10,755 bases of DNA, from assembly GCA_030271555.1 (NCBI GenBank), contig JARXKQ010000021.1, forward strand, positions 1 through 10,755, written 5' to 3'. Below, piece by piece: positions 4,087-10,755 of the stretch. This DNA comes from Chloroflexota bacterium. GTDB taxonomy: Bacteria; Chloroflexota; Limnocylindria; Limnocylindrales; CSP1-4. The translations under genes were made by a program, and so were the position numbers. How positions within the stretch are numbered: the stretch's first letter is position 1; each line of letters opens with the position of its first letter. The notes beneath the pieces were generated by a model. It did not search any database. It was not told where the DNA came from and worked only from the letters and a program-made list of their open reading frames with translations.

Positions 4087-5022
4087 GTGAACCTGCAGCG
4101 CGGCCAAGTTACCGTTGAGGCGCCGGCGTCGTCGGCCAACCTGGGGCCCGGCTTCGACGCGCTCGCCCTGGCGCTCGACCTGCACCTGCAAGTAACGGTG
4201 ACCCCGCTCGACTCCGGCAGCGAGCAGCTCGTCGTGGAGGGCGAGGGCGCGGATGAGATCGGCATGGACGCGGGCAATCGCTTCCTGATCGGACTGGAGC
4301 GCGGCCTGCAGGCCGCGGGCCTGGAGCCGCCGGTGATGCGGATCGAAATGCGCAACGAGATTCCGCTGGCACGCGGCCTGGGCTCGTCCGCTGCTGCCGT
4401 CGTCGCCGGGCTGCGCGCGGCCGAGGCGATGGCCGGGACCGAGCTGGGGCTGGATCGGCTCCTGGCCATCGCGACCGAGGTCGACGGCCACCCGGACAAT
4501 GTCGCCGCAGCGCTGCTGGGCGGCTTCGTGATCGTTGCCCGGGACGACGCCCGAATCCCGCGCGCGGCGCACTTCGAGCCCCCTGATGATCTTGTGGCCG
4601 CGCTCTTCATCCCGGCGCTGGCCCTGCGGACGGCGGAGATGCGCGCGGCGCTGCCCGCCCAGGTCGCGCACGCCGACGCGGCGCACAACATCGGCCGCGC
4701 GGCATTGGTCGTGGCCGCCCTCACGGCCAATCGCCCCGAACTCCTCGCTGCCATGGCCGACGATCGCTTGCATGAGCCCTACCGCGCCGAACACTTCGCG
4801 GCACTGCCGGACCTGGTCGCCGCGGCGATGCGGGCAGGTGCGCTGGGCGCGTCGCTGTCAGGCGCCGGGTCGAGTGTTATCGCGCTGTGCAGTGACGCTG
4901 CCGCTGCCGCACGGGTCGCCGCGGCGCTGGAGACCGCTGCCGCGAGCGCCGGCGTCGAAGGTCGCGCGTCGGTCGTTCGGCCCACCGCCGCCGGCGCGCG
5001 CCTGGTGAGCGCCACGAGCTGA
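4087..5022 (+). CDS. thrB: Homoserine kinase (GHMP family)
   Basis: This enzyme phosphorylates L-homoserine with ATP to O-phosphohomoserine, the substrate of the adjacent threonine synthase. It has 311 residues and the three GHMP-family motifs. PASSANLGPGFDAL is at residues 13-26, and the ATP-binding loop PLARGLGSSAA has GLGSSAA at 97-103. DGHPDNVAAALLGGF is mid-protein, and the C-terminal GASLSGAGSS is at 254-263. The start is GTG 4087, with a weak AGGG 5 nt upstream that overlaps the thrC stop. Its TGA shares one base with the ATG of birA (TGATG), so the two are probably translationally coupled. Homoserine dehydrogenase, the preceding step, is not in the window. Confidence 0.95.
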   Translation: MNLQRGQVTVEAPASSANLGPGFDALALALDLHLQVTVTPLDSGSEQLVVEGEGADEIGMDAGNRFLIGLERGLQAAGLEPPVMRIEMRNEIPLARGLGSSAAAVVAGLRAAEAMAGTELGLDRLLAIATEVDGHPDNVAAALLGGFVIVARDDARIPRAAHFEPPDDLVAALFIPALALRTAEMRAALPAQVAHADAAHNIGRAALVVAALTANRPELLAAMADDRLHEPYRAEHFAALPDLVAAAMRAGALGASLSGAGSSVIALCSDAAAAARVAAALETAAASAGVEGRASVVRPTAAGARLVSATS

Positions 5023-5801
5023 TGGCTTTCCCGGCGCGGCTCGAGCAATTCCGCGCCATCGACTCCACGCAGCGCGTGGTGCGCGAGTGGCTCGAGGCCG
5101 GCGAGCCGGAGGTTTGCGTCGCTGTCGCCGATCACCAGAGCGCCGGTCGCGGCCGCCTGGGTCGCGAGTGGATGGCGGCGCCGGGATCGGCGTTGCTCCT
5201 GTCCGCCGGCTTCCGGCCCAATGGCCTGTTGCCGCGCCACGGCTGGCGCCTGGCGGCGATCGTTGCCCTGGCGATGCGCGACGCGGCCGAGGAAGTGGCC
5301 GGCCTGGCCGACGGCACCATCTGGCTCAAATGGCCCAATGACCTGGTGGCGCTCGTCGAGCACCGTGGCGTCGTCAAGGTGGCGGGCGTGCTGGGCGAAT
5401 CAGTCAGCAGTCCCAGGTGGGTTCAGTCGGCCGTGATCGGTATCGGCGTCAATGGCAATTGGAAGTCGGCCGACTTTCCCTGGTTGCTGGCCTCAGCCAT
5501 GACCAGCCTGCGCCAGCTATCGGGCAACCGGCCGATCGATCACGCTGCCCTGCTGGACGCCTTCCTGGCCCGCCTCGAGCCGCGCTATGAGGCGCTGAGC
5601 GCCGGGATCTTTGATGCCGCGGGGTGGAGCGTCACCCAGATCACGACCGGCCGCCAGGTGGTCGTCGACTTGGCCGGCGAATCGTTGCTCGGCACGGGTG
5701 CCGGCGTCGATCCGGAAACCGGCGCTTTGCTGCTCGATGTTGCCGGCGGCGGGCGGCGCGTGATTGACAGCGGCGAGGTCACGCGCTGCCGGGTGAGCTA
5801 G
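5022..5801 (+). CDS. birA: Biotin--[acetyl-CoA carboxylase] ligase, monofunctional (no DNA-binding domain)
   Basis: This ligase activates biotin with ATP to biotinyl-5'-AMP and attaches it to the carrier lysine of biotin enzymes. It has 259 residues. IDST at 13-16 opens the biotin-binding site, and GRGRLGREW at 42-50 is the adenylate-binding loop. WLKWPNDL is at 101-108. VKVAGVLGE at 118-126 carries Lys119, equivalent to the catalytic Lys183 of E. coli. IGIGVNGNW follows, and a C-terminal domain (about 212-258, with GTGAGVDPETGALLLD) is typical of the family. There is no N-terminal helix-turn-helix, so it should not act as a biotin-operon repressor. All catalytic residues look intact, so this genome should contain at least one biotin-accepting protein. 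The accB homologue further along this window lacks the acceptor lysine. The stop codon overlaps that of the convergent sulfotransferase. Confidence 0.94.
   Translation: MAFPARLEQFRAIDSTQRVVREWLEAGEPEVCVAVADHQSAGRGRLGREWMAAPGSALLLSAGFRPNGLLPRHGWRLAAIVALAMRDAAEEVAGLADGTIWLKWPNDLVALVEHRGVVKVAGVLGESVSSPRWVQSAVIGIGVNGNWKSADFPWLLASAMTSLRQLSGNRPIDHAALLDAFLARLEPRYEALSAGIFDAAGWSVTQITTGRQVVVDLAGESLLGTGAGVDPETGALLLDVAGGGRRVIDSGEVTRCRVS
5798..5801. other. Shared CTAG: stop codons of convergent birA and sulfotransferase genes
   Basis: The palindrome CTAG supplies TAG on the plus strand (5799-5801, end of birA) and TAG on the minus strand (5800-5798, end of the sulfotransferase). The genes meet tail to tail with a 4-bp overlap and no room for a terminator between them. 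Confidence 0.85.
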
Positions 5802-6877: not shown

Positions 6878-6907
6878 TCCGCGGTGTTAAGGAGAGGGAA
6901 GGACCGC

Positions 6908-7522
6908 GTGGCGGCCCTGGTCAATCTCGATGCCGACCGCTCCGCCGTTGAAGCGGCTCGACGCGACCCGCGCGCCTTCGAGGCGCTGTATCGGAAGTAC
7001 GTCGCCCAGGTGTACAACTTCGCGCTCTATGAGCTGCGTGACCCGCACGCGGCAGAGGACCTCACCGCGCAGGTCTTTCTGCGCGCGCTGAGCGGGTTGC
7101 GCCACTTCCGCGAGCAGACAACGGGCCCCGACTCGTCTTTTCGGGTGTGGTTGTTCCAGATTGCGCGCAACACCCTGTCGAACGAGCGTCGGCGCAACCG
7201 CCGCCATCCTGAGACGCCACTTGATGCCGCGCTCGAACTGCCCGGCACACACGATGTTTCAGGCACTGCCGCTGAGCGTGACGAGCTGCGCGCCGCGTTG
7301 GCGGCCATCGACCGCCTGCCGGCCGACCGCCGCCGCGCGCTCGTGCTGCGCTTCGTGAACGAGCTCGACGCACGCGAGATCGGCCTGGTGCTGGGCCGCT
7401 CGGAGGGGGCGACCCGGGTGCTGATTCACCGGTCCCTGCAGGCCGTGGCACGGTCGATGGGGCGCAGTCGCGACGCTAAAGAGGACGAGCTACCCGCGGA
7501 GCGCAGGCGCGCGGCCAATTGA
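6908..7522 (+). CDS. RNA polymerase sigma factor, sigma-70/ECF family
   Basis: This is a two-domain (sigma-2 plus sigma-4) factor of 204 residues that would direct RNA polymerase to a specific promoter set. Sigma-2 spans roughly residues 20-100, with AFEALYRKYVAQVYNFALYE, DPHAAEDLTAQVFLRAL and SFRVWLFQIARNTLSNERRR. Sigma-4 spans about 132-190, with LRAALAAIDRLPADRRRALV and a helix-turn-helix at DAREIGLVLGRSEGATRVLIHRSL. There is no sigma-1.1 or sigma-3 region. GTG 6908 is chosen as the start because a purine-rich tract (AAGGAG, GGGAAGGA) precedes it. The alternative GTG 6884 would add eight residues and needs the codons TTA, AGG and AGA, which are rare in a genome this GC-rich. Its TGA shares a base with the ATG of the next gene (TGATG). 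The target promoters are unknown. Confidence 0.9.
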   Translation: MAALVNLDADRSAVEAARRDPRAFEALYRKYVAQVYNFALYELRDPHAAEDLTAQVFLRALSGLRHFREQTTGPDSSFRVWLFQIARNTLSNERRRNRRHPETPLDAALELPGTHDVSGTAAERDELRAALAAIDRLPADRRRALVLRFVNELDAREIGLVLGRSEGATRVLIHRSLQAVARSMGRSRDAKEDELPAERRRAAN

Positions 7523-7899
7523 TGTTCCGCGACTCCGAAGACGGGGCGATCCAGAGCGACGCCTACATCGACGCATTGCTGAGCGGCCACGCGCGGCTGC
7601 CGATGCAGCTGCCTGTCGCCGCTAACGCGCCCGCGCCCAGCGTGCGCCGCGCCATCCGCACGCTCGAAGACGGTATGCCGCGCTTCCACCCCTCGTTCCT
7701 GTTCGAGGAGCGGCTCGCTGACCAGCTGCGCGCGCTGGCTGAGCAGCACGTCGATGGCAGCCCCGTCGCGAGCCCGATCGTGATCGAGCGGCGCGTCTTC
7801 ATCGGCGGGGCAATCGCATCGGGCGTCTCGCTCGCCGGCGCCGCGATGTGGGCGTGGCGCCACCGCCCGCGATCGACCGCAGCGGCTGGTCAGGACTAG
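7522..7899 (+). CDS. Small single-pass membrane protein of unknown family, candidate partner of the adjacent sigma factor
   Basis: I do not recognise a family for this 125-residue protein. It begins with an acidic stretch (MFRDSEDGAIQSDAYIDALL). A linker and a short charged segment with RAIRTLED and HPSFLFEERLADQLRALA (about 56-73) follow. There is one hydrophobic segment at about 92-112 (VFIGGAIASGVSLAGAAMWAW), flanked by E-R-R and R-H-R-P-R. It has no signal peptide, HTH or Cys-rich zinc motif of the ZAS anti-sigma type. ATG 7522 overlaps the stop of the sigma gene by one base, and its TAG is 2 nt before accD. A soluble N-terminus plus a single C-terminal membrane span, coupled to a sigma gene, is how many anti-sigma factors are arranged. 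That role is inferred from position and topology only. Coding status is supported by the coupling and by the gap-free fit between two secure genes. Confidence 0.75.
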   Translation: MFRDSEDGAIQSDAYIDALLSGHARLPMQLPVAANAPAPSVRRAIRTLEDGMPRFHPSFLFEERLADQLRALAEQHVDGSPVASPIVIERRVFIGGAIASGVSLAGAAMWAWRHRPRSTAAAGQD

Positions 7900-7901
7900 C
7901 C

Positions 7902-8828
7902 ATGCCCAGCTTCAAGCTGCCTTTTGGCCGCGCCCGCCAGGAGTACCCGCCCAACCTGTGGACCAAGTGTCCCGACTGCGCCGAGATGCTCTACAACAAG
8001 CAGCTCGACAAGAACCAGCGCGTGTGCACGCGCTGTGGCCACCACTTCCGCCTGCGCGCCGATCAGCGCATCGCGCAGCTCCTGGACCGCGACTCGTTCC
8101 GCGAGCAGGATGCCAACCTCGAATCGGTCGACATGCTGGGCTTCGTCGACCAGAAGCCCTATTCCGAACGACTGGCGGCCGCTCACGCCGCCACCGGGTC
8201 GCGCGACGCGGCGGTGTGGGGACCGGGCACGATTGCCGGCACGCGGGTCGTGGTGTGCGTCATGGACTTCGCCTTCATGGGCGGGTCGATGGGCACGGTC
8301 GTTGGCGAGAAGGTGACGCGCGCCGCTGAGCACGCCCTCGATGAGCGCCTGCCGCTGATCATCGTCGCGTCGTCGGGTGGCGCGCGGATGCAGGAAGGCA
8401 CGCTGTCGCTGATGCAGCTCGCCAAGACCTGCGCGGCGCTCGGCCGCTTGGGCGACGGCGGCGTGCCCTTCATCAGCGTCCTCACTGACCCAACGACCGG
8501 CGGTGTGTTTGCATCGTTTGCGGCTCTGGGCGACGTGAACATCGCCGAACCCAAGGCGCTCATCGGGTTTGCCGGCGCACGCGTTGCCGCGGGCACCATC
8601 GCCGAGGAGCTGCCTGAGGGCTTCCAGCGCGCCGAGTTCCTGTATGACCACGGTTTCGCCGACCTGGTGGTGCCGCGCGCCAAGCTGCGCGAAACGCTCC
8701 TGGGGCTGCTGCGCTACATGAAGCCCAGCGCGCAGGTCGAACGCGCCGGCCAAAACGGCTCATCGCCGCTGGGCCGCTCGGCACAGTTGTTCGACGAGCT
8801 CATCCGCCGGGAGCCGACCCATGGTTGA
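7902..8828 (+). CDS. accD: Acetyl-CoA carboxylase carboxyltransferase subunit beta
   Basis: Together with AccA, this subunit moves the carboxyl group from carboxybiotin to acetyl-CoA, giving malonyl-CoA for fatty acid synthesis. It has 308 residues. The N-terminal zinc finger CPDC-x15-CTRC uses Cys23, 26, 42 and 45. The crotonase-like core includes MDFAFMGGSMGTVVGEKVTRA, SSGGARMQEGTLSLMQLAKT and TDPTTGGVFASFA, all hallmarks of AccD. ATG 7902 is chosen because AGGA lies 6 nt upstream and the protein then starts at the usual point before the zinc finger. An upstream ATG at 7848 in the same frame would run through the preceding gene. It overlaps accA by 8 nt (ATGGTTGA), which may help make equal amounts of the two subunits. 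Confidence 0.96.
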   Translation: MPSFKLPFGRARQEYPPNLWTKCPDCAEMLYNKQLDKNQRVCTRCGHHFRLRADQRIAQLLDRDSFREQDANLESVDMLGFVDQKPYSERLAAAHAATGSRDAAVWGPGTIAGTRVVVCVMDFAFMGGSMGTVVGEKVTRAAEHALDERLPLIIVASSGGARMQEGTLSLMQLAKTCAALGRLGDGGVPFISVLTDPTTGGVFASFAALGDVNIAEPKALIGFAGARVAAGTIAEELPEGFQRAEFLYDHGFADLVVPRAKLRETLLGLLRYMKPSAQVERAGQNGSSPLGRSAQLFDELIRREPTHG

Positions 8829-9846
8829 GCAGCGCACCGCGGCCTCCGTGGCGGTGGTCGAGCCAACGCCGGACGAGTTGCGCAGCGCGATCTGGGCGCG
8901 CGTCCAGCAGGCGCGAAACGTCAAGCGGCCGCATACGCTCGAGCTGATCCAGTCGATCGCGACGGAGGTCATCGAGCTCCACGGGGACCGCCTGTTCCGC
9001 GACGATCCGGCGATTGTCGGCGGCTTCTGCCGCATTGACGGCCGGCGGGCGGTGTTCGTCGGTCACCAGAAGGGCGCCGAGACCGACGAGAACATCCGGC
9101 GTAACTTCGGCATGCCCCATCCCGAGGGCTACCGCAAGGCGATCCGACTGTTCCGACTCGCGGAGCGGCTCGGTTTGCCGATCGTCACTTTTATCGATAC
9201 GCCGGGCGCGTTTCCCGGCCCAGCGTCCGAAGAGCGCGGCGTGGCCGAGGCGATCGCCCGCGCGATCATGACCATGTGTGGGCTCCGGACACCCATCGTC
9301 ACCGTGATCACCGGCGAGGGCGGATCGGGTGGCGCGCTGGCACTCGCCGTGGGCGACGTGGTGCTGGCGCTCGAGAACTCGATCTACTCGGTCATCTCCC
9401 CGGAGGGTGCGGCGAGCATCCTGTGGCGCTCGGCCGAGTACTCGCAACAGGCCGCCGCGGCCATGCGCCTGACCGCCGCTGAGCAGCTCGCCCTGGGCGT
9501 GATCGACGAGGTCGTGCCCGAGCCGCCGGGCGGCGCGCACACCAATCCCGAGGAAACAGCGCGACGCCTGCGCGCGCGCATCGCGGCGCACCTTGATGCA
9601 CTCGCGGGCCGCGAGCGCAAGGCGCTGCTCGACGCGCGCTACGCGCGCTATCGCAACATGGGCGAGTTCGCGATTGCGGCCGAGTCGGGCGAGGCCCAGC
9701 CGCAGCGGCCGGGCTTGAGGGCGCGCATCCGACGGGTGCTCGATGCGGGCCGCAATGCACTGGTCGGCGGCGAGGGCGAAACAAACGACCCAACGGCCGA
9801 CTCGACCGATGAAGCCGATGTCCAGCGAACGGGCGAGGGCTCGTAG
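8821..9846 (+). CDS. accA: Acetyl-CoA carboxylase carboxyltransferase subunit alpha
   Basis: This is the second half of the carboxyltransferase, 341 residues long. Conserved AccA blocks are IELHGDRLFRDDPAIVGGF, GHQKGAETDENIRRNFGMP, HPEGYRKAIRLFRLAE and FIDTPGAFPG (124-133). GEGGSGGALA (165-174) and YSVISPEGAASILWR follow. The oxyanion-hole glycines and the surrounding loops are intact. The N-terminal LEFE-type coiled segment of E. coli AccA is mostly missing. The C-terminus carries about 50 extra residues, first basic (RPGLRARIRRVLDAGRNAL) and then acidic and disordered-looking. The ATG at 8821 has GGGAG 7 nt upstream. It overlaps accD by 8 nt and is followed 3 nt later by the accB homologue. 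Confidence 0.95.
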   Translation: MVEQRTAASVAVVEPTPDELRSAIWARVQQARNVKRPHTLELIQSIATEVIELHGDRLFRDDPAIVGGFCRIDGRRAVFVGHQKGAETDENIRRNFGMPHPEGYRKAIRLFRLAERLGLPIVTFIDTPGAFPGPASEERGVAEAIARAIMTMCGLRTPIVTVITGEGGSGGALALAVGDVVLALENSIYSVISPEGAASILWRSAEYSQQAAAAMRLTAAEQLALGVIDEVVPEPPGGAHTNPEETARRLRARIAAHLDALAGRERKALLDARYARYRNMGEFAIAAESGEAQPQRPGLRARIRRVLDAGRNALVGGEGETNDPTADSTDEADVQRTGEGS

Positions 9847-9849
9847 CCC

Positions 9850-10323
9850 ATGGCCGCCAATACCGACGAGCGCGCCACCATTGCCCGCCTAACCGACGAG
9901 GTCGTGCCCGCGCTCATCGAGCGCCTCGCGAACAGCGATCTGGGCGAGCTCGAGGTGCGCCAGGAGGGCTGGCGCGTCCGGCTGCGCCGAGCCACGAATG
10001 GCGGTAGCTCGGCGGGCCCCGCTCTGCCCCCGGCGCCGCACAAGCCGGCCGCCGTCGCGCACGCTGCTGACCAGCAGCCGCCGCGCCGCGAACCGGTGCG
10101 CGGCCAGGTCAAATCGCCCGCAGTCGGTTACTTCACGCTGCGCGATGGCGTCGCCGCGGGTAGCAAAGTGCGCTCGAACGACATCGTTGGGTTCGTGGAC
10201 GTTCTTGGCGTCCGCCAGGAAGTCGTCAGCCCGGCCGACGGAGTGCTCAAGTCGATCGAGGTCGAATCCGGTCAGGCGGTCGAGTTCGGCCAGGTCATCG
10301 GTCGGGTCGAAGCGAATGTTTAG
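9850..10323 (+). CDS. AccB-like biotin carboxyl carrier homologue lacking the biotinylated lysine
   Basis: This 157-residue protein has the AccB plan. An N-terminal helical/strand domain (about 5-47, ending LGELEVRQEGWRVRLRR) is followed by a Pro/Ala linker (about 50-83) and a biotinyl/lipoyl-type domain from KSPAVGYF (88-95) to the end. The half-domain KSIEVESGQAVEFG (134-147) nearly matches E. coli KAILVESGQPVEF. In the ungapped alignment between them, the biotin motif E-A-M-K-M becomes D117-V-L-G120-V121, so glycine replaces the biotin-accepting lysine. I checked the codons (GAC GTT CTT GGC GTC) and saw no frame slip: the reading frame is open and conserved on both sides. The protruding thumb of AccB is also shortened. 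It lies between accA and accC, 3 nt after the former and overlapping the latter by 8 nt. It cannot carry biotin in the usual way; a regulatory or structural subunit, as with plant BADC proteins, is the best guess. Confidence 0.9.
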   Translation: MAANTDERATIARLTDEVVPALIERLANSDLGELEVRQEGWRVRLRRATNGGSSAGPALPPAPHKPAAVAHAADQQPPRREPVRGQVKSPAVGYFTLRDGVAAGSKVRSNDIVGFVDVLGVRQEVVSPADGVLKSIEVESGQAVEFGQVIGRVEANV

Positions 10324-10755
10324 TCGGATCCTGATCGCCAATCGGGGTGAGATCGCGCTGCGCATCGTGCGCGCCTGCCGCCAGATGGGGATCACCAGCG
10401 TCGTTGCCTACAGCGAGGCCGATCGCGACTCACGCGCCGTTCAGCTTGCCGACGAGGCGATCTGCGTCGGCCCCGCCGAGTCACGCCGCTCGTATCTGTC
10501 CGCGCCCTCGATCCTGTCGGCCGCGATCGTCGCCGGTTGCGAGGCGATCCACCCGGGCTATGGCTTTCTGTCGGAGGACGACACGTTCGCCGAGATGACT
10601 CGCGCCCACGGCCTGACGTTCATCGGTCCGTCACCAGAGGTGCTTGAGCGCTTCGCGTCGAAAGCCGGGACAAGAACGCTGCTGGCGAAGCACGGACTAC
10701 CGACCATCCCGGGCTCGGGCATGCTGCGCGACGACGCGCACGCGATGGCCGAGGC
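10316..10755 (+). CDS. accC: Biotin carboxylase subunit of acetyl-CoA carboxylase, C-terminus beyond the right edge
   Basis: This ATP-grasp enzyme carboxylates the biotin on the carrier protein with bicarbonate and ATP. About 146 codons are visible, covering the N-terminal biotin carboxylase domain and the start of the ATP-grasp domain. FSRILIANRGEIALRIVRAC opens the protein as in nearly all AccC. YSEADRDSRAVQLADEA, EAIHPGYGFLSE (76-87), FIGPSPEVLERF (102-113) and LPTIPGS follow. Lys116 falls at the position of the ATP-binding Lys116 in E. coli, but the preceding MGD is FAS here. ATG 10316 is the natural start and lies inside the end of the accB homologue (ATGTTTAG, 8-nt overlap); there is no Shine-Dalgarno site. 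It could also be the first part of a longer acyl-CoA carboxylase alpha chain with its own biotin domain; the window ends too early to tell. Confidence 0.93.
   Translation, partial: MFSRILIANRGEIALRIVRACRQMGITSVVAYSEADRDSRAVQLADEAICVGPAESRRSYLSAPSILSAAIVAGCEAIHPGYGFLSEDDTFAEMTRAHGLTFIGPSPEVLERFASKAGTRTLLAKHGLPTIPGSGMLRDDAHAMAE

Follow-up and report, generated by a model that had tools for sequence, protein, structure and literature searches.

Bacterial acetyl-CoA carboxylase, the enzyme that commits carbon to fatty acids, is by textbook account made of four subunits. The biotin carboxyl carrier protein (BCCP, or AccB) binds biotin carboxylase, a complex for which its N-terminal part is needed, and carries biotin between the two active sites. 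What, then, does an AccB homologue without the biotin-accepting lysine do within an acc operon? We analyzed such a gene, accB1, in a stretch of 10,755 nucleotides from a Chloroflexota bacterium (the window), which is the whole of contig C87 in a draft genome of 1.63 Mb (311 contigs, 62.8% complete). Its close homologues bear Chloroflexota names, Candidatus Limnocylindrales and Limnocylindria being among them. The features that bear on the question are as follows.

5022..5801, plus strand: biotin protein ligase gene (birA-like), upstream of the acc genes; TIGR00121 over cut-off.
7848..8828, plus strand: accD, carboxyltransferase beta subunit; TIGR00515 over cut-off.
8821..9846, plus strand: accA, carboxyltransferase alpha subunit; TIGR00513 over cut-off.
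9850..10323, plus strand: accB1, encoding the lysine-less AccB homologue AccB1 (P0001, 157 aa); Pfam, NCBIfam and alignment of homologues.
9904..9990, plus strand: N-terminal AccB segment, residues 19-47, with P20, E35 and R44 invariant in 25 rows; alignment including E. coli BCCP.
10105..10311, plus strand: biotinyl-type barrel, residues 86-154, with a shortened thumb; Pfam PF00364 over residues 86-151.
10207..10209, plus strand: codon GGC of Gly120, in the place of the biotinyl lysine; gapless alignment to 4hr7_B.
10316..10755, plus strand: start of accC, biotin carboxylase (ATG at 10316), cut by the contig end and continuing on contig C278; Biotin_carb_N.

The window also holds a sulfotransferase-domain gene (PF00685; 5801-6709, minus strand), flanked by birA and a gene for a sigma-70-type factor. 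The sigma gene (6884-7522, plus strand) overlaps a 126-aa open reading frame without a Pfam match (7519-7899, plus strand); most relatives' regions have a homologue of it in the neighbourhood of birA and accD.

The preliminary description had claimed that AccB1 has lost the biotin-accepting lysine and that its open frame is tightly packed between accA and accC. Both claims held. When the motif region was aligned with that of E. coli BCCP (4hr7_B, VRSNDIVGFVDVLGVRQEVVSPADG), Gly120 fell on the biotinylated lysine without a gap, and the lysine of the (E)xMK(M/L) motif was absent from the protein. The gene starts after a 3-nt gap from the end of accA at 9846 and overlaps accC by 8 nt. P0001 passed the Pfam Biotin_lipoyl model (34.8 bits against a cut-off of 22.1). 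The NCBIfam BCCP model TIGR00531 matched residues 21-154 with 53.2 bits, below its cut-off of 115.2; the match covered profile positions 8-155 of 156, so that the N-terminal segment and the C-terminal barrel are both present. Since the lysine-bearing AccB2 of a relative (L132) scored 97.6 bits and was likewise below the TIGR00531 cut-off, this cut-off alone is no marker of lysine loss. The thumb insert of the P0001 barrel is about six residues shorter than that of E. coli BCCP in the alignment to 4hr7_B. P0001 also has traits of the efp-type AccB, namely VE(Y/F)G near the C-terminus (as VEFG) and Glu145 at +25 of the site. Judged by its sequence, AccB1 is non-biotinylatable at the usual site, though its homologues carry the name 'biotin carboxyl carrier protein'.

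The replacement is conserved. Among the query and the 120 homologues listed of 1259 matches (121 proteins), Gly occupied the site in 120/121, the remaining row having a gap; the motif read VLG or MLG in 120/121, and Asp117, at -3 of the site, was kept in 121/121. Gly was likewise found in 63/63 genomes read of the window's class (families f1 to f5), these being genomes with a profile match and not a random sample; a match was present in 116 of the 121 class genomes. No relative read in the class had lysine at the site. In families f3 and f5 the motif was (V/I)Q(S/T)LG, and in family f2 a single-sequence query found no match in 5/19 genomes. The dN/dS ratio of the lysine-less gene (Nei-Gojobori) was 0.05-0.38 in nine usable pairs, some sharing a sequence, one further pair being nearly identical and giving no ratio; for the lysine-bearing partner it was 0.08-0.33 in four pairs. 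The lysine-less AccB1 is thus under purifying selection, and the suggestion that the gene is selected, not decayed, was borne out by the conserved Gly and the low ratios.

Biotin could in principle sit on another lysine. Lysine was common at positions 106 (74 rows) and 134 (81 rows) among the 121 proteins (query and 120 listed of 1259 matches), but 9/121 of the same set contained no lysine anywhere, as did 12/18 copies of another Chloroflexota family (P0122-P0139), which rules out an alternative acceptor in these homologues. The best-kept lysine column was held by at most 8 of the 25 wider rows. We therefore rejected another biotinylated lysine for the family; for P0001 itself this is not proved. 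Of the two outcomes that the preliminary description had named as refuting, lysine at this site in all relatives and biotin on a different lysine of the protein, neither overturned the claim.

A second AccB that could carry the biotin is encoded nearby in relatives. The accC gene followed accB1 in 20/20 relatives' regions (in L126 with a gap of about 0.8 kb), and a second AccB with EAMKL, AccB2, lay about 1.8-2.7 kb beyond accC in 19/20; in the 20th region (L123) the contig stops inside accC. The gene order in L132 and L128 was accC, fabZ, calcineurin-like phosphoesterase, fabF, accB2, fabH (by Pfam domains for L132), the phosphoesterase gene lying at L132:3819-4562 (minus strand) and L128:7848-8597 (plus strand). 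All 16 aligned AccB2 rows shared EAMKLFNEI.SD and a full thumb. When the window's own genome was searched with accC, the gene proved to continue on contig C278 from query residue 169 onward. After the remainder of accC, this contig (3500 bases) carries fabZ, fabF and an accB2 that the contig end cuts off after 54 codons, short of the motif, so that the AccB2 motif is not seen in this genome. A true BCCP encoded elsewhere, as had been supposed, is well supported by EAMKL in the relatives and by the accB2 begun on C278. Searching the same genome for BCCP domains with an MK motif gave two EAMKM proteins (L002 and L003), but both look like other carboxylases, L002 being fused to a biotin-carboxylase-like region and L003 lying beside a methylmalonyl-CoA mutase-like gene (both named by reading). 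They were rejected as partners of AccB1, for which the accB2 of C278 is better suited.

AccB1 and AccB2 also differ away from the motif. The thumb, measured as a pattern-based distance spanning it, was 34 in 74/74 AccB2 and 17/17 lysine-bearing AccB1, but in only 31/111 lysine-less AccB1; it was 28 in 55 Gly copies. By site residue, a distance of 34 was found for Gly in 8/77, Asn in 10/19, Arg in 6/8, Gln in 5/5 and Asp in 2/2 copies, which indicates that thumb loss is mainly a trait of the Gly type. At +25 of the site (residue 145 of P0001, residue 157 of the L132 AccB2), Glu was present in 109/111 lysine-less AccB1 and 17/17 lysine-bearing AccB1 against 12/74 AccB2, the position being variable in AccB2 (K 23, Q 19, E 12, R 11 and others, n=74). 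The AccB1/AccB2 difference at +25 might possibly reflect a difference in contacts or in ligase recognition.

To see how far the loss extends, we followed the lysine-less profile beyond the class. It matched 161/201 Chloroflexota genomes, and the AccB loci read were a chosen part of the matching genomes in which better matches were favoured. Among the Chloroflexota read outside the class, 49 genomes had a lysine-less AccB1 (N 20, G 14, R 8, Q 5, D 2; the raw Gly tally of 15 includes one Armatimonadota genome), 18 had lysine and 3 were unclassifiable (G183, G215, G257). There, accB1 usually stood with pepQ, efp and/or xseA. It was not next to accC in the efp-linked lineages, nor, within the class, in families f3 and f5. 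AccB2 had fabF and/or fabH in its stretch in 32/32 annotated Chloroflexota genomes with a lysine-less AccB1.

A match was also found in 58/61 Armatimonadota genomes. The 30 loci listed comprised 8 with lysine and 22 without, the latter with G 13, R 3, T 2, H 2, N 1 and D 1 at the site; an accC homologue lay in the stretch for 20 of these 22, the exceptions being both Thr loci (L348, L355). Of 20 second matches, 19 had lysine and an AccB2-like motif; the last, from G338, was the Arg copy, lysine being present in this genome's other copy. Among the 22 lysine-less Armatimonadota genomes, 17 (G313 included) gave a second copy with lysine; for the other five a single match each was listed. The stretches around the Armatimonadota second copies, about 3.5 to 4 kb long, showed no fab gene beside them, which makes linkage to fabF a trait of Chloroflexota. 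In three Armatimonadota genomes (G361, G319 and G337; loci L361/L419, L363/L420 and L370/L425) both AccB copies had lysine. These are possible intermediates before lysine loss, which would fit AccB2 arriving ahead of the loss.

In the other groups read the lysine was retained. The profile matched 95/149 Bacillota genomes, and all 31 carrier domains read there (30 genomes) had lysine, as did the one Thermoleophilia domain read; in a set of 80 loci, 79/81 carrier domains had lysine, the other two being from Armatimonadota. A lysine-less AccB as a general bacterial trait was therefore rejected. So was Gly as a special motif: since homologous genes in other families have N, R, Q, D, T or H, the common trait is loss of lysine, not Gly or DxLG. 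As to whether relatives conserve Gly120 and DxLG, Gly was kept throughout the class genomes read, but not as a special motif. Our searches of open-access PMC papers showed no report of a lysine-less bacterial AccB, and the AccB described in PMC4861984 and PMC3459881 is lysine-bearing.

The association of lysine loss with AccB2 was analyzed in 65 hand-picked genomes, 62 of them classifiable. A lysine-less AccB1 occurred with AccB2 in 42 genomes and without it in 2 (G178, 76% complete; G191, 82% complete), while a lysine-bearing AccB1 occurred without AccB2 in 15 and with an AccB2-like copy in 3 (family f46, GVMKTFH, no fab gene seen beside it). Fisher's test gave p = 1.1e-9 with kinship ignored; since the AccB1 tree holds 3 changes and one supported independent pair, a kinship-corrected test is without power. 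The pairing of a lysine-less AccB1 with a lysine-bearing AccB2 in relatives is well supported. Family f46 (G247, G289 and G303; L302-L305, L207) has extra AccB-like genes with GVMKTFHQI and EVMKLMHSV beside a normal efp-linked AccB. One genome of family f13 (G164, 87% complete) had an AccB2-like match with the AccB1 match absent; together with the f2 genomes without a match, this suggests that AccB1 may be dispensable.

In a tree built without the motif columns, in which few forks were resolved, P0001 fell into a 35-row group (SH-aLRT 96) with lysine-less AccB1 from several families; the Gly rows of Armatimonadota, the Gln rows and a second group of 19 Asn/Arg rows were placed elsewhere. The same tree put 52/55 rows labelled AccB2 in one group (support 89). 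A weak tree of 95 rows showed 6 changes between lysine and no lysine on the best tree, and a single lysine-less clade was not rejected (AU p 0.108).

The preliminary description had likened the protein to plant BADC, which PMC11926652 describes as lacking the AMKL motif, binding both BCCP and biotin carboxylase, touching the BCCP thumb, and being unique to the plant enzyme. A QLG-type sequence had been named for BADC, and one is in print: in Brassica, the orthologues of Arabidopsis BCCP-like 2 show CYIEQLGGQFPIESDVTG at the place of the CIIEAMKLMNEIE of BCCP (PMC9578262). That these Brassica proteins are BADCs is our own identification. Like plant BADC, AccB1 is a BCCP relative without the biotinyl lysine that coexists with a true BCCP, as seen in relatives and, in its own genome, from the start of accB2 (motif not seen). 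In the window's class Met-Lys is replaced by Leu-Gly, as in the Brassica motif IEQLGG (PMC9578262), whereas other bacterial families are unlike it. AccB1 also differs from plant BADC in being bacterial and operon-encoded, with N, R, Q, D, T or H in other bacterial families. The likeness is one of traits.

AccB1 resembles the BCCP of TIGR00531 in its full-length homology, with N-terminal segment and barrel, and in its place in the acc operon, and differs in the missing lysine and shortened thumb. In Chloroflexus aurantiacus, of the same phylum, the BCCP barrel of a fused BC-BCCP has a structural role: it links carboxylase dimers, and activity falls when it is broken (PMC11077971). Unlike AccB1, that BCCP is fused and biotinylated on Lys553 and is no lysine-less paralogue. 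By description only, AccB1 read as non-catalytic can also be compared with the epsilon subunits of actinobacterial acyl-CoA carboxylases. These subunits are small and not BCCP-like. We take them to be the non-catalytic glue subunits of bacterial acyl-CoA carboxylases to which PMC11926652 refers without using the name epsilon.

Since the protein is kept whole, is unable to carry biotin, is encoded between transferase and carboxylase, and is paired with a functional copy, it is best read as a non-catalytic subunit. With a probability of roughly 0.6, AccB1 would be an efp-type AccB retained in acetyl-CoA carboxylase as a non-biotinylated, non-catalytic subunit with a mode of action like that of plant BADC, while AccB2 carries the biotin. 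AccB1 would occupy a BCCP place in the AccC-AccB assembly through its conserved N-terminal segment and barrel, offering no biotin, and would help to assemble or hold the AccC-AccB2 unit; the dose of AccB1 relative to AccB2 would set the number of biotinylated arms present. We infer that AccB1 binds AccC and AccB2, and likewise which way it acts and in what order events took place; the BADC and Chloroflexus parallels serve as analogies, not as tests.

On the other hand, AccB1 may be a competitive brake, occupying the places of AccB2 on AccC or the carboxyltransferase and lowering malonyl-CoA formation with no role in assembly. Plant BADC was at first read as an inhibitor, and in the class AccB1 shares its operon with AccC; in vitro work, however, reads BADC as a glue (PMC11926652), and a ratio to AccC fixed by the operon would be a costly design for a pure brake. 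We consider this unlikely, if the strongest of the alternatives. A role outside acetyl-CoA carboxylase is more doubtful still. AccB1 may have been recruited elsewhere, given the pepQ, efp and xseA neighbours in most other families and the pepQ-efp-accB-xseA context in many Chloroflexota, but lysine-bearing AccB1 occupies the same context, so that the place is inherited, and the gene adjoins accA and/or accC in the window's class and in Armatimonadota.

Slightly less probable again is that AccB1 is a partner or pseudo-substrate of the biotin ligase, binding BirA unmodified and tuning the biotinylation of AccB2. The window has a birA-like gene upstream, as do most relatives' regions read, and acidic residues are kept at -3 (Asp117 in all 121 proteins, the query and 120 listed of 1259 matches) and at +25 (Glu, as counted above, in lysine-less AccB1), the two places that E. 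coli BirA uses. Yet Glu at +25 in 17/17 lysine-bearing AccB1 may mean that it is simply inherited, and the birA linkage is one read in the window's class. As for the idea that the gene is decaying, freshly mutated or wrongly sequenced, the incompleteness of the draft genome would allow it; Gly across independent assemblies, purifying selection and homologues without any lysine refute it for the family, and we rejected a pseudogene or sequencing error on these grounds, leaving it a negligible probability for this gene.

The reading of AccB1 as a non-catalytic subunit can be extended to both phyla, where the pattern is a more interesting result than the single gene of the window. On balance we favor, with somewhat less assurance, that in two phyla the older AccB stepped down to being a subunit without biotin, structural or regulatory in role and paired with a biotinylated AccB2, a counterpart of BADC reached independently, the site drifting to G, N, R, Q, D, T or H after the lysine was lost. 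The name 'biotin carboxyl carrier protein' is put on proteins unable to hold biotin at that site, and calls for caution. If the reading is true, a conserved fifth subunit, a non-biotinylated paralogue of BCCP, would change the subunit model of acetyl-CoA carboxylase for large groups of environmental bacteria, and would offer a simple bacterial system for asking whether BADC-type proteins are glue or brake.
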